From the NCBI GenBank assembly GCA_027306585.1, contig DAHUZJ010000077.1, positions 37,426-101,425 on the forward strand: a stretch of DNA of 64,000 bases. Direction: 5' to 3'. Below, piece by piece: positions 24,164 through 30,264 of this stretch. Numbering within the stretch: position 1 is the stretch's first letter; each line of letters begins with the position of its first letter. The stretch comes from Acidimicrobiaceae bacterium (GTDB lineage: Bacteria > Actinomycetota > Acidimicrobiia > Acidimicrobiales > RAAP-2). The notes under the pieces were generated by a model that was given only the letters and a program-made list of their open reading frames with translations, searched no databases and was not told the DNA's origin. The position numbers were made by a program, and so were the translations under genes.

Positions 24164-24251
24164 GGAGGGATGGCAGAGCGGACGAATGCGCGGCTCTTGA
24201 AAAGCCGTGGGGCTCCGGTCCCCGTGGGTTCAAATCCCACTCCCTCCGCCA
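24164..24251 (+). tRNA. tRNA-Ser (anticodon UGA)
   Basis: Acceptor arms GGAGGGA and TCCCTCC pair. The anticodon stem CGGCT/AGCCG encloses the loop CTTGAAA with anticodon TGA. A long variable arm is present, as expected for serine, the T loop is GTTCAAATC, and CCA is encoded. This tRNA reads UCN codons and is not a tRNA-Sec. Confidence 0.96.
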
Positions 24252-24896: not shown

Positions 24897-24985
24897 GGAG
24901 GCGTGCGAGAGCGGCCGAATCGGACGGTCTCGAAAACCGTTGTACCCCCTGGGTACCGTGGGTTCAAATCCCACCGCCTCCGCCA
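24897..24985 (+). tRNA. tRNA-Ser (anticodon CGA)
   Basis: Acceptor arms GGAGGCG and CGCCTCC pair. The anticodon loop CTCGAAA carries CGA. A long variable arm (around TTGTACCCCCTGGGTACC), T loop GTTCAAATC and encoded CCA are present. Confidence 0.96.
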
Positions 24986-25450
24986 GAGGCTCCCCGGAGG
25001 GCCGTAGGCAGAGTGGACGAGGGCCCCGGCCCGGCGGCCCGGCGAGGGTCCCGGCCGGGGCCTTCGTCGGTCATGGCGGCCTCGCCCACAGGCACCGCCG
25101 GCCGCTCCCGAGCGCTCCCGAGCTCTGCGCCGAAGGTCCGGATGGTCCTCGGGACGCGACCACGAGGTACGCCCGGCGTCCCGCTCACGGCCGTTCCGTC
25201 CGACGCCATCCGGGCGGGGGGGCGGGACGAACCACGGCGGCGAAATCCTAAGAAAGAAAACTGGGTTTTCTTTCTTAGTGCAATTGTCGGTTCGGCGCTC
25301 CTACGCTTTTGCCGACCTATGAAGACGATAGATAAATCTAGCACACGATTTCGGCGCCTGCATTCCGCATTTCACAGAGGCGCACACCGCCGCGTGCGCC
25401 GACCGTTCTGCCGAGACGGACGGTCTCGGGCACGGACGGAAGGCGGCAGC
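24986..25450 (+). other. 465-nt intergenic stretch with an AT-rich island upstream of the adhesin gene
   Basis: No convincing gene lies here; the upstream extension of the adhesin ORF is GC-rich filler. About 25240-25375 is clearly AT-richer than anything else in the window. It holds the perfect hairpin described separately and a possible promoter, TTGCCG (25309), 17 nt, ATAAAT (25332), which would place the transcript start about 110 nt before the adhesin ATG. No SRP RNA signature was found, although some actinobacteria have that gene near tadA. Confidence 0.6.
25248..25278. repeat. AT-rich 14-bp perfect inverted repeat with 3-nt loop
   Basis: Arms CTAAGAAAGAAAAC and GTTTTCTTTCTTAG are perfect complements around TGG. 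The composition is purine-only on one arm and pyrimidine-only on the other, apart from the ends, and is in strong contrast with the surrounding GC-rich DNA. It could be a bidirectional terminator between the tRNA/tadA transcript and the adhesin operon, a protein-binding site, or the end of a former mobile element. Confidence 0.85.
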
Positions 25451-28400
25451 ATGTGGCGGGCGGCTCGGGCGTTGGCGACGCTGCTCGTCGCTGGTGGCAT
25501 CGGATCGATCGCGGCCGGGATCGACCAGCTGGCGTCGCCCGCCACCGTTGCGGGCGCGGCGAACGGTTACGGGCCTGGCGTCGGTCCACAGACACCGACG
25601 GGTCACTGGGGCGGCGCCTACGTGCTGCAGGGTGTTCCCGGCTACGGCTACTGCATCCAGCCCGGTGCCGCCGACCCGATCGAGCTGAGCGCCACGACGT
25701 GGTCCCCCGTGCCCTATCCGGGCAGCAGGCTCTGGTCGAACGGGCAGATGGCGGCACTCGCGTACTTCGCCGAGCGCTACCAGGGCACCGGCTATGGCGG
25801 CTACTCGGTCAGCCAGACGACCGCCGCCATCGCCGACGTGGCATACGCGTCGGCCGGGGGGACAACCCCACCCTCCAGCAGGCCACCGGCGCAACTGCTC
25901 GCCGACGTCGAGGCGTGGATCGTGACGTACGCCGGGCCCTGGACCATCGCCGTCTCGATGACACCGCCGGCGGGGGCCACGTTCGCCCCCTCGACCAACT
26001 ACTCGGGCACCATCACCGTGCGGAGCGCCACCGGAGCCGGCGTAGGTGGCCTCGAGCTCATCCCCCCCGCCACCGGGGGACCCTCGACCGGCGAGATCAG
26101 CAACTTCGTCTGGCTCCAGCCGACCACCGATGCAGCCGGCGCGATGGGGTTCCAATGGAACATCGACAGTTCCCCACCGGGCGGCTCGTTTGCCGCCGGC
26201 GGAATAGGCATTATCGGAGGAGCTCCAGGGACAGCACCACCGACGTACGGGACGCCCACCGGGGTGGGCGGCCAGACGATGCTCGTCTCCGGAGCGCCCG
26301 CTGGCCCGACGACCAGCTTCAGCGGTGTGGTCGCTGCGTCGGCGACAGACCACGGCACGATCTCGATCGACAAGGCGGTCGCCGACGCGTCCTTCTACCA
26401 GCCGGTCGGTGCCGTCTTCCAGGTACGCAACGGGGCCGGCCAGGTGCTCGACACCCTCACCACCAACATCGACGGACAGGCCGGACCGTCGATCCCGCTC
26501 ACAGCGCCTCTGAGCGGCGCCCTCTACGACGTGCACGAGGCCGTCGCCCCGCTGGGCTACCTGCCCGCGCCCGACCAGGTCGTGCGCGTCTACCCCAACC
26601 AGGACACGGTCGTCACCTACAGCGGCGCCAACGAGGAACCGTCGGTGAACGGCCAGCTCGAAGCGCGCAAGGTCGACGCCCAGACCGGCCAGCCACTGGC
26701 GGGTGCGGTGTTCGACTTCCACTTCGACCGGACAAACCGCGGCACGTACCCCGAGGACCTGGGCCAGTGCACCACGGGTGCCAACGGTGCCTGCCAACCA
26801 CCCCAGCAGACGGCACCTGGCGGATGGCTCCCCGGCTGGTACCGGGTGACAGAGGTGCGTCCACCGTCTGGCTACTCGCGCACGGGGACGTCGGCGACCC
26901 AGTACGTGTTCGTCCGCCCGAACACGACGGCGGTGGCCACGGTCACGTTCGCGGACCTGGCGCTCGGGAGCCTCCAACTGCGCAAGTCGGGCAACGACAC
27001 GGCGTACTGGCCCGTCGCCGGCGCCGCGTTCAGCGTCGCCGGCCCCGCACCGTCCGCCTCCGTGGTCGGGACATTGGTGGTCGGGTCCACAGGAGCCTCC
27101 AACGTCCTCACCAGCCTGGTGCCGGGCACCTACACCGTCACCGAGACCCGGGCACCCCCGGGCTACGGGACGGTCGCACCGTTCACGACCTATGTCGCCC
27201 CCGGGCACGCCACGACGGTCGTGTCGGCGGTGGACGCGGTGCAGCCCGGCACGCTGGTGATCCGAAAGACCGACCGGCTGACGGGCGTGCCGCTCGCCGG
27301 TGCCACGTTCGAGACGGCGTACGACAGCCACGACGACGGGACCTTCGACGTCGACCTCGGCACGTGCACGACCGGTGCCGCCGGGACGTGCGCTCCTCCG
27401 CCCAACGACGGCACCGGGTTCCTGCCCGGTCGCTACCGGGTGACGGAGGTCGCGGCGCCGGCCGGGTACGCCCTCCCCACACCGGCGCCAAGCCAGACGA
27501 TCGTCGTGGACCCGGCTGCGTCGGCGACCTTCTCCTTCACCGACCAGGAGCTCGTCGGCGCGTCGTTCCTCAAGGTGGCCACGGGAAGCGTCAACCCCAC
27601 ACTGCTGGTCCTGGCCGGTGCCGTCGTCGACGTCACCGCCGGGCCGACCTACGGTGGGACCGTCGTGGCCTCGTGCACGACGGCGGCCGACGGCAAGTGC
27701 ACCACCGGCGAGACCCTCCTGGCGGGTGACCCCTACTGCTGGCGCGAAGTGACGGCGCCCCCCGGGCTTGCCGCTGGGGCGACCGGCTGCTTCACGGCCT
27801 CCGACGCCCAGGCCACAGAGCCCATCGTCGTGAGCGATCCGGGGCGCTTCGTCCCGATCGCCGCAAAGAAAGTCGACCGGGCCGACCCATCGGTCACCCT
27901 CCCCGGCGCCGTGTTCGACCTGTACCGGGTCGACGGTGGCCACGGACCGTCGGCGCCCACCCCGCCCGCCGACGCCCGCCTGGAGGCAGGGCAGACGTGG
28001 GTCGCCCGGTCGACCTCCGGCCCGACAGGCGTGGCGACGTTCCCGCTCGAGCTCCCCGGCTACGCGTACTGCGTGGTCGAGCATGCCGCACCGCCGGACT
28101 ACGTCACCGTCCCGACAGAGCACTGCACCGGCGTGCTAACCGGACCGCAAGGGACACCGCCGGTCGCCGTCACGGTGACCGTGCCCGACACACCGGTCGA
28201 GGTCAGCGTGACGGCCCGCAAGTTCAACACCGCCACGCCGGGCACCGGGATCCCCGATGCCGTCTACGACCTGTACGTCGAAGGTGCGGGACCACCGGGC
28301 GGTCCGTCAACGACAGCGCCCTCCGGGGCGGCGACGATCCCGGGGGCCAAGTGGTGGGCCCGCGGCACCACGGCGGCCACAGGGTCCCTCGGCTTCCAGG

Positions 28401-29056
28401 TCCCGGCCGGCTACGCGTGGTGCCTGCACGAGGTGAGCGCCCCCGTCGACTACACGCTCGACCCGGCGCTGCACTGCACGGCCACGGTCACGGCCTCGGG
28501 GACAGCGGGGCACGTCCGCGTCGCCCTGCCGGAGACGACCGCCCTGGTCGAGGTCTACGCCCACAAATTCAACGCGCTCGCACCGGACACCAGCATCCCC
28601 GGCGCCACCTATGAGATGGTCGGCCAGGGTCCCGTCCCGGCCGGCTGGTCGGCGTCCCCCGACCCCTTCCACTACCTGGTGCCGGCCGGTGACTGGTACG
28701 TCGGCACGACCACGACCGACGCGCAGGGGCTCGCCAGCTGGACGGTGCCGGCCGGCCACTCGTGGTGCCTTCACGAGATCCACGCACCGGCGGGGTACGC
28801 GCTCGACACCGGCTGGCACTGCACCGGGCTCGTCACCACGCTGACGCCAGCACCGAAGGCGACGGTGGCGCTGCCAGAGGTCGCGATCCGCACGGTCATC
28901 GCCACGGCGACCGCCAGCTCCTCCGCCACCCTGGCCTTCACCGGCGGTCCCGGCACGCTGCCCGTGGCTGCCGGCTCGGGCTCCGCGGTCGCCGGCATCT
29001 CGCTCATCGTGGTCACGCGACGGCGGCGCACGAGGCCAGGGGGGAGGCTCCGGTGA
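25451..29056 (+). CDS. Large surface adhesin: thioester-type N-terminal domain, eight SpaA/Cna-B-like repeats, LAxTG sorting signal
   Basis: A secreted, wall-anchored protein of 1201 residues. Residues 1 to about 36 are a signal peptide. Residues about 40-190 resemble the TQXA/thioester domain: Cys68 in GYGYCIQPG and Gln122 in SVSQTTAAIADVAYA could form an internal Cys-Gln thioester that bonds covalently to host or neighbour-cell amines. From about residue 300 there are eight prealbumin-like repeats. Each opens with a Lys strand (LEARKVD, LVIRKTD, VTARKFN) and closes with an E-box (YRVTEVRPPSGY, WCLHEVSAPVDY), the pattern of isopeptide-stabilised Cna-B/SpaA domains. The end is LAFTG (residue 1161), a hydrophobic helix and RRRR, a class E sortase signal. 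ATG 25451 follows GGAAGG. The next gene overlaps by GTGA. Confidence 0.9.
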   Translation: MWRAARALATLLVAGGIGSIAAGIDQLASPATVAGAANGYGPGVGPQTPTGHWGGAYVLQGVPGYGYCIQPGAADPIELSATTWSPVPYPGSRLWSNGQMAALAYFAERYQGTGYGGYSVSQTTAAIADVAYASAGGTTPPSSRPPAQLLADVEAWIVTYAGPWTIAVSMTPPAGATFAPSTNYSGTITVRSATGAGVGGLELIPPATGGPSTGEISNFVWLQPTTDAAGAMGFQWNIDSSPPGGSFAAGGIGIIGGAPGTAPPTYGTPTGVGGQTMLVSGAPAGPTTSFSGVVAASATDHGTISIDKAVADASFYQPVGAVFQVRNGAGQVLDTLTTNIDGQAGPSIPLTAPLSGALYDVHEAVAPLGYLPAPDQVVRVYPNQDTVVTYSGANEEPSVNGQLEARKVDAQTGQPLAGAVFDFHFDRTNRGTYPEDLGQCTTGANGACQPPQQTAPGGWLPGWYRVTEVRPPSGYSRTGTSATQYVFVRPNTTAVATVTFADLALGSLQLRKSGNDTAYWPVAGAAFSVAGPAPSASVVGTLVVGSTGASNVLTSLVPGTYTVTETRAPPGYGTVAPFTTYVAPGHATTVVSAVDAVQPGTLVIRKTDRLTGVPLAGATFETAYDSHDDGTFDVDLGTCTTGAAGTCAPPPNDGTGFLPGRYRVTEVAAPAGYALPTPAPSQTIVVDPAASATFSFTDQELVGASFLKVATGSVNPTLLVLAGAVVDVTAGPTYGGTVVASCTTAADGKCTTGETLLAGDPYCWREVTAPPGLAAGATGCFTASDAQATEPIVVSDPGRFVPIAAKKVDRADPSVTLPGAVFDLYRVDGGHGPSAPTPPADARLEAGQTWVARSTSGPTGVATFPLELPGYAYCVVEHAAPPDYVTVPTEHCTGVLTGPQGTPPVAVTVTVPDTPVEVSVTARKFNTATPGTGIPDAVYDLYVEGAGPPGGPSTTAPSGAATIPGAKWWARGTTAATGSLGFQVPAGYAWCLHEVSAPVDYTLDPALHCTATVTASGTAGHVRVALPETTALVEVYAHKFNALAPDTSIPGATYEMVGQGPVPAGWSASPDPFHYLVPAGDWYVGTTTTDAQGLASWTVPAGHSWCLHEIHAPAGYALDTGWHCTGLVTTLTPAPKATVALPEVAIRTVIATATASSSATLAFTGGPGTLPVAAGSGSAVAGISLIVVTRRRRTRPGGRLR

Positions 29057-30264
29057 GGCCGCTCGGAGCCGGAGCCAGGCTGGCGGTCGCGGCCCACCTG
29101 GCCGGAGCATGGTTCGCCGTGACGGTGCTGCTGGCCGCCAGCGCGCCGGCGGCGGCGCACCCCACGGCCGCCCGCTCCTCGGCCGGGCAGGCGATCGGCA
29201 TCACCACAACGTGCCCTGGACCGGGGTGTCCCTACGTCCCGGCCACTGCCGATGAAGCCGGCATCGCCACCGACGTCCTGGCCCGGATCAACCTGGAGCG
29301 GGCCGCTCCGGCACGGGACTACTCGTACCAAGGGGGGCAGGCGGCGCTCATGCCACTAGCCCCCGCCCCGGCAGCAGCCCAAGATGCGGCGCAGGCAGCA
29401 GCCGAATGGCAAGCGACCCACGGCTTCGTCGCCGACTATCGAGGTCCCGTCCCGACCGGAACCCGTTACACCACGGGCGGCAACGCAGCCGGGGCCGGTG
29501 ACTCCGCCGGGATCGACGACGCGATCATGCACTCGTACGGCCACGCGCTGGGAGAGCTGTCGGCCGCGCCGACCCAGGTCGCGATAGGCGCCGCCTGCAC
29601 GAGTGCCGGCACCCTCTACGTGACGGAGGACTTCTACGACCCGAACCGGGCGGCCTGGTCGCAGGGGCAGGTCCGGCTCGCCGCCGAATTGGCGCACGAC
29701 AGCGTCTACGCGGAATCCGGTGGGACGGTCACGACGGTCACGGACGGCAGCGGCTCGGGGCCGGCCCAGGACTACCTGCCCCAACAGCCGATCGTGGCCG
29801 GCTACGGCACCAATTTCTCGGACCTGTACGCGACGGGCTCGGACTGGACCTGCAGCGGGGCCCGCTTTCCGCCCGGGAGCTCGCCGAGCTCCCCGCTCCC
29901 GGTCCCCGTGGTCGCCATTGCCAGCTCGGCGGACGGCCACGGGTACCTCCTGGCCGACGCTGCGGGCGCCGTGGACGTCCACGGCGACGCGGCGTTCCAC
30001 GGCGACTTGGCGGCCGCGCCCCCCAGCGCTCCGATCGTCGACGTGGCGCCGACCGCCGACGGCGGTGGCTACTGGATGGTGGGGGCCGACGGCGGCGTGT
30101 TCGCCTTCGGTGACGCCGGGTTCATGGGCTCGTTGCCGGGCGTGGGCGTGCACGTGGACGACATCGTGGGGATCGCTGCGCCACCCTCACGGGCGGGCTA
30201 CTGGCTCGCAGGGCGTGACGGCGGGGTCTTCGCGTTGGACGTCCCCTTCTATGGCGCCGCTTGA
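29053..30264 (+). CDS. Secreted CAP (SCP/PR1)-domain protein with C-terminal YWMVGADGG-type repeats
   Basis: A protein of 403 residues with a signal peptide (hydrophobic stretch ending ASAPAAAH). Residues about 60-250 form a CAP-like domain, including LARINLERA, AEWQATHGF and AIGAACTSAGTLYVTEDFY. The C-terminal 115 residues hold about three beta repeats of the type YWMVGADGGVFAFGDAGF, which I associate with exported proteins of Acidimicrobiia. GTG 29053 overlaps the adhesin TGA, so the two proteins are probably made together and act at the cell surface. The protein ends shortly after its third repeat. Confidence 0.88.
   Translation: MRPLGAGARLAVAAHLAGAWFAVTVLLAASAPAAAHPTAARSSAGQAIGITTTCPGPGCPYVPATADEAGIATDVLARINLERAAPARDYSYQGGQAALMPLAPAPAAAQDAAQAAAEWQATHGFVADYRGPVPTGTRYTTGGNAAGAGDSAGIDDAIMHSYGHALGELSAAPTQVAIGAACTSAGTLYVTEDFYDPNRAAWSQGQVRLAAELAHDSVYAESGGTVTTVTDGSGSGPAQDYLPQQPIVAGYGTNFSDLYATGSDWTCSGARFPPGSSPSSPLPVPVVAIASSADGHGYLLADAAGAVDVHGDAAFHGDLAAAPPSAPIVDVAPTADGGGYWMVGADGGVFAFGDAGFMGSLPGVGVHVDDIVGIAAPPSRAGYWLAGRDGGVFALDVPFYGAA

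Follow-up and report, generated by a model that had tools for sequence, protein, structure and literature searches.

A probable thioester-isopeptide adhesin of Acidimicrobiales, with a divergent class II head and a class E anchoring motif

Gene layout, sorting signal and neighbouring genes

The window (the whole stretch of 64,000 nucleotides that was analysed) belongs to an Acidimicrobiales genome, in agreement with a preliminary description that had called it Acidimicrobiia-like from its letters. It contains a genuine open reading frame on the forward strand (25451-29056, +), which begins with ATG and encodes a protein of 1,201 amino acids (120.9 kDa), a length for which the term "giant adhesin" used in that description is overstated. 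A ribosome-binding-like site, GGAAGG (25438-25443, +), is located 7 nt ahead of the ATG. From its N-terminus to its C-terminus, the protein is composed of (i) a signal peptide (aa 1-36; 25451-25558, +), recognised by eye from a basic n-region, a hydrophobic core and small residues before the likely cleavage site, (ii) an N-terminal thioester-type head (aa 37-300; 25559-26350, +), probably a divergent class II thioester domain (TED) according to an alignment of 55 homologues, the comparison of a homologue's AF2 model with PDB entry 6FWY, and collinear orthologues, (iii) eight SpaA/Cna-B repeats, and (iv) a cell-wall sorting signal (28931-29053, +), read directly from the sequence, in which the motif LAFTG (28931-28945; aa 1161-1165) is followed by a hydrophobic stretch and an RRRR tail. 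This architecture and the sorting signal are computed results. Two tRNA-Ser genes (24164-24251, + and 24897-24985, +) are found upstream of the adhesin gene, and the frame between them resembles a tRNA/cytidine deaminase by eye.

The motif of class E sortases is LAXTG (PMC5148588). The class E signal proposed in the preliminary description is thus confirmed, and the sortase E gene on whose presence that reading had been made to depend is encoded elsewhere in the genome (NCBIfam NF033747, 170.6 bits for a cut-off of 160). Three sortase matches were obtained in this genome: the class E enzyme, a class F enzyme and a third one at a contig end. The class F sortase (L002, 980-1854, +) is spread over two overlapping frames, one carrying the first part of the NCBIfam match and the other the second, owing to a frameshift produced either by mutation or by an assembly error. 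The third sortase (L003, 39-1731, +) is class D/E-like and incomplete, being cut by the contig end; it lies just downstream of a possible substrate, a Gly-rich protein with a hydrophobic stretch and RRRRLRR at its C-terminus.

The adhesin stop codon shares a 4-nt overlap (GTGA) with the GTG start of a downstream gene (29053-30264, +), the N-terminal part of which is weakly CAP-like. The adhesin had previously been described as coupled to a secreted CAP-domain protein. The overlap does suggest translational coupling; however, the match to the CAP family (PF00188) reaches only 15.1 bits, under the cut-off of 21.1, and no homologue of the downstream gene was found in the stretches fetched around related adhesin genes, so that the coupling was rejected as a conserved unit. 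That the two overlapping genes form one functional unit, with a CAP-like protein as partner of the adhesin, is therefore improbable, and the downstream gene is probably not part of the adhesin. The C-terminal half of its product contains GYWMVGADGGVFAFGDAGF-type repeats, and a phmmer search with this protein matched ORFs in L089 and L060.

The isopeptide stalk

The stalk comprises eight SpaA/Cna-B stretches (Pfam PF17802, 176 bits, E=1.2e-52), as had been described earlier, with predicted isopeptide bonds. Indeed, the forward strand encodes in succession repeat 1 (26351-26644; K308, E363, N394), repeat 2 (26645-26965; K407, E468, D502; C440/C448), repeat 3 (26966-27250; K512, E565, D595), repeat 4 (27251-27550; K606, E666, D698; C639/C647), repeat 5 (27551-27841; K708, E766, D796; C742/C750 and C763/C780), repeat 6 (27842-28189; K807, E877, D913; C874/C892), repeat 7 (28190-28537; K924, E994, acceptor position Glu1028; C991/C1009) and repeat 8 (28538-28888; K1039, E1109, acceptor position Glu1143; C1106/C1124). 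The inspection of Lys-Asn/Glu pairs that had been suggested as a check was favourable: the lysine and the catalytic glutamate are kept in all eight repeats, and the acceptor residue is Asn in repeat 1, Asp in repeats 2-6 and Glu in the last two, the full triad with an Asn/Asp acceptor being present in six of the eight. In related proteins, the residue located 11 positions before the lysine of the next repeat is Glu in 18 cases out of 31, Asp in 9 and Asn in 1. Since the acceptor is Glu and a Lys-Glu isopeptide bond is not mentioned in the main text, as searched, of a 2025 survey of intramolecular isopeptide bonds (PMC12617251), repeats 7 and 8 may either form no bond or rely on a novel one.

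Apart from Cys68, the protein has 14 cysteines, all located within the repeats in sets that can be paired; Cys68, the sole cysteine outside the repeats, is left unpaired. Disulfides are given for 41.3% of the isopeptide domains of Actinomycetota in the same survey (PMC12617251).

A weak similarity to the NCBIfam model of SpaH/EbpB major pilins (75.5 bits) could suggest a pilin, with polymerisation by a class C sortase, and not a single wall-anchored stalk. However, this score is under the cut-off of 95, the three sortases matched in this genome (92% complete) include no class C enzyme, and the LAXTG motif is a class E signal. Polymerisation as a pilin is therefore very improbable, and the protein is considered here as a single wall-anchored stalk.

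The cysteine-glutamine pair of the head

TED-type domains are known mainly from Gram-positive pathogens. In these domains, the glutamine that forms the bond comes from a β-strand downstream of the helices, and the TQxxΦW motif of the helix is dispensable for the bond (PMC4450167). In class II TEDs, a β-sandwich is placed between the helices and the glutamine strand, which returns as a hairpin to the cysteine (PMC6194298), and in the solved structures the helix glutamine adjoins the thioester without forming it (PMC4450167, PMC6194298). The spacing between cysteine and glutamine is 195 in BaTIE, 204 in EfmTIE86 and 171 in SaTIE, all solved (PMC6194298), and 188 in the modelled TIEpLS20 (PMC8092201).

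The head of the window protein can be read in the same order. Cys68 (GYGYCIQ; 25652-25654, +), the predicted thioester cysteine, would lie in an early β-strand, where GYCIQ matches the motif [YFL]CΦζ. It is followed by Gln122 (25814-25816, +), at the helix-2 position of the TQxxΦW motif, where the sequence is SQTTAA, with the glutamine present and the tryptophan missing, as it is across the family. A predicted Ig-like β-sandwich insert comes next (approximately aa 163-262; 25937-26236, +), delimited by alignment to the β-sandwich of the homologue model, with approximate boundaries; a Big_1 Pfam match was obtained in 9 of the 12 family members scanned. Gln275 (GGQTML; 26273-26275, +), the predicted thioester glutamine, is at the later-strand position with a loose fit to ΦQζΦΦ, and its spacing of 207 from Cys68 is near the class II values of 171-204.

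Column counts were taken from a multiple alignment of 56 rows, namely the window head and 55 relatives, mostly from Acidimicrobiales, of which 54 are complete; the remaining one ends before the glutamine column and was left out of the pair count. This multiple alignment was used for the Gln275 column because pairwise global alignments of full-length orthologues misplace that residue. Cysteine occupies the Cys68 column in 51 of these 55 relatives and glutamine the Gln275 column in 50, and the pair follows an all-or-none pattern, which is likewise a computed result: both residues are present in 50 of the 54 relatives, neither in 4, and one alone in none. An earlier alignment of 23 relatives gave the same result (21 with both residues, 2 with neither). 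The Gln122 column, on the other hand, is variable, with Q in 24 of the 55, and many members that keep the cysteine have no glutamine there.

The preliminary description had proposed a thioester between Cys68 and Gln122. Its cysteine is supported by the YCI motif and by the conservation of its column, and a covalent bond is predicted. Its glutamine is to be replaced: although Gln122 stands at the start of helix 2, which adjoins the thioester in solved TEDs, the equivalent residue is dispensable for the bond in published mutagenesis, its column varies among relatives that retain the cysteine, and Gln275 is the residue conserved together with Cys68. The pair Cys68-Gln122 was rejected on these grounds and is hardly conceivable as the bond; the domain proposed was probably of the right kind, with Gln275 in place of Gln122 as predicted partner of Cys68.

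The relatives without the pair carry A/A, A/S, A/D and E/A at the two columns. These four co-losses occur in two genera of a single other GTDB family and may represent a single event. The f31 orthologues without the pair (L030, L124, L126 and L127) still keep the protein. In L126 and L127, loss of the pair is accompanied by loss of the lysines of repeats 1-4, as read from the sequence, and in L064, from another GTDB family than that of the window, by loss of the lysines of repeats 1, 2 and 4, as read by alignment; L064 keeps all eight catalytic glutamates. All eight stalk lysines are kept in L131, L137 and L138. From this one branch, we infer that the covalent head and the outer cross-links may serve one function, and the joint loss makes the idea that grip and stalk stiffening share a function directly testable.

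Fold, family and overall reading

In the AF2 model of one relative, L093 (ten sequences; pLDDT 93.0, pTM 0.88), a β-strand with Cys35 at its end precedes three helices and a β-sandwich, and the model finishes with a hairpin that starts at the late glutamine. A Foldseek search of this model against 350,542 PDB chains placed 6FWY, the class II TED of Enterococcus faecium TIE86, at ranks 1 and 2 (E=7.6e-9 and 1.0e-8), the next PDB entry being far behind at 3e-4. The match spans the whole length with a low TM-score (0.39), and a profile comparison (hhalign) with the Pfam-recognised TEDs of the same taxonomic class placed Cys on Cys and Gln on Gln with E=2.6e-4 and a probability of 42%, so that the lobes may be oriented differently or the assignment may hold for part of the fold only. 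The class II fold of L093 is thus the outcome of computation on a predicted model. The Pfam TED model PF08341 has no match in the window protein and, on 12 family members, its best match is to one member at E=0.22; the head is not called by NCBIfam either. Divergent TEDs that escape Pfam are to be expected, since a 2022 survey of the fibrillar adhesins of Firmicutes and Actinobacteria described several new TED clusters, class II included (PMC9210967).

The window head itself is an outlier of the family. A family HMM built without it gives it 7.2 bits, the best of about 1,000 shuffles reaching 9.1, and its global alignment to 23 relatives has a Z of 6.0 (300 shuffles), the reversed sequence giving -0.9. 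Its own AF2 model (nine sequences) is poor, with a pLDDT of 48, and a fold search with that model matched Ig domains and no TED; the β-sandwich between helix 3 and the glutamine hairpin is seen in the confident model of L093. The placement of the window head in the family is based on collinear full-length orthologues and on the register of the motifs. Indeed, L064, L131, L137 and L138 are collinear with the window protein over all eight repeats, each repeat being 37-60% identical, and in the sorting signal, and they carry heads that clearly belong to the family. The ORF of L138 (4,154 codons) continues far past the LAFTG sorting signal, which could be explained by a fusion or by a frame left open through high GC content.

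As aligned, Cys68 and Gln275 are kept in register in the window head; its fold, the formation of its thioester and its reactivity are inferred. The head could also have a TED fold and yet show no activity or simply bind, with the chemistry confined to the stalk, given that some orthologues have lost both residues and retain the protein, that the window head is an outlier, and that it has Gly before Gln275, where most relatives have Ala. Against this, both residues are retained in register, and where function appears to have been lost they have disappeared together with three or four stalk lysines, whereas the window protein keeps eight. An inactive head is consequently unlikely, and an active covalent head is the reading followed below.

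Single-sequence searches with the head in 61, 298 and 297 genomes returned spurious matches only, mostly with internal stops. Homologues were reached through a search for SpaA repeats, which yielded Acidimicrobiales proteins with the same N-terminal region, and profiles were built from them. SpaA repeats were found in 20 of 298 genomes of the order. With the profiles, the head domain was found in 18 of 335 genomes of the class, including some with weak partial matches, and in 40 of 172 genomes (12 of 21 genera) of the window's own GTDB family; its relatives include a Candidatus Microthrix MAG. Pfam-recognised TEDs were found in 6 of 296 genomes of the class, and in two such domains (L067 and L070) Ala or Gly replaces the thioester cysteine while the late glutamine is kept. 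These counts do not agree with the rarity of thioester and Cna-B domains beyond Firmicutes and some Actinobacteria of animals that had been put forward earlier.

Taken together, the product of this gene is most likely a surface protein anchored to the wall and able to bond covalently to another surface through its tip, which supports the wall-anchored covalent adhesin with thioester-type head, isopeptide repeats and class E signal of the preliminary description. After secretion, the adhesin would be anchored to the wall at LAFTG by the class E sortase, and its eight SpaA/Cna-B repeats would form a stalk, with Lys-Asn/Asp isopeptide bonds and paired cysteines as the source of its stiffness. In the head, a β lobe with Cys68 would be followed by three helices, the inserted Ig-like β-sandwich and a β-hairpin returning Gln275 to Cys68, where the thioester would form spontaneously with loss of NH3. 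An amine, probably from a lysine of a nearby cell or surface, could then attack the thioester and give an intermolecular amide bond. The protein is probably a covalent adhesin of the TIE (thioester-isopeptide) type, in which a divergent class II thioester head is combined with class E anchoring; the class II assignment is given as probable because it is linked through full-length orthologues and the window head is an outlier.

This reading would add Acidimicrobiales MAGs, for which attachment to a host is not the obvious purpose, to the range of covalent thioester adhesion, and would provide a large family, escaping the Pfam and NCBIfam models used, in which natural co-loss reveals the reactive pair. 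The kind of protein is already known, from the clusters of the 2022 survey and from Bacillus subtilis, in which conjugation needs a class II TED (PMC8092201). In the open-access literature, we found no description of a class II head without the helix-2 tryptophan, widespread in one Acidimicrobiales family and combined with a class E signal, and no paper covering both Acidimicrobii and sortase. A bolder and rather unlikely conjecture is that the Acidimicrobiales heads constitute a third sequence type of thioester domain, forming its bond without the helix-2 tryptophan, and that the membrane-proximal repeats, of the type of repeats 7 and 8, use a Lys-Glu isopeptide bond.

In comparison with known systems, the class II TIE proteins (BaTIE, SaTIE, EfmTIE86/6FWY and TIEpLS20) share with the window protein a head with [Y/W]C[I/V] and a late-strand glutamine, together with three helices and a β-sandwich insert as modelled in a relative, and behind this head Cna-B repeats and a sortase signal. 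They are LPXTG proteins of Firmicutes, whereas the window protein has LAXTG, belongs to Acidimicrobiales, has no tryptophan of the TQxxΦW motif and has a head missed by PF08341 and NCBIfam. The Pfam-recognised TEDs of the class (L066, L068 and L069) have cysteine, helices, Ig-like region and late glutamine in the order predicted for the window head, but they keep VQxAxWH and are called by PF08341, neither of which is true of the window head. With the SpaA/Cna-B isopeptide domains (PF17802), repeats 1-6 have in common the lysine, the catalytic glutamate and an Asn/Asp acceptor; repeats 7 and 8 differ by their Glu acceptor, and repeats 2 and 4-8 by their paired cysteines. Finally, the features of class E sortase substrates are all found: the window protein has an LAXTG motif (LAFTG), a hydrophobic stretch and a basic tail, its genome encodes a class E sortase, and no difference from these substrates was noted.
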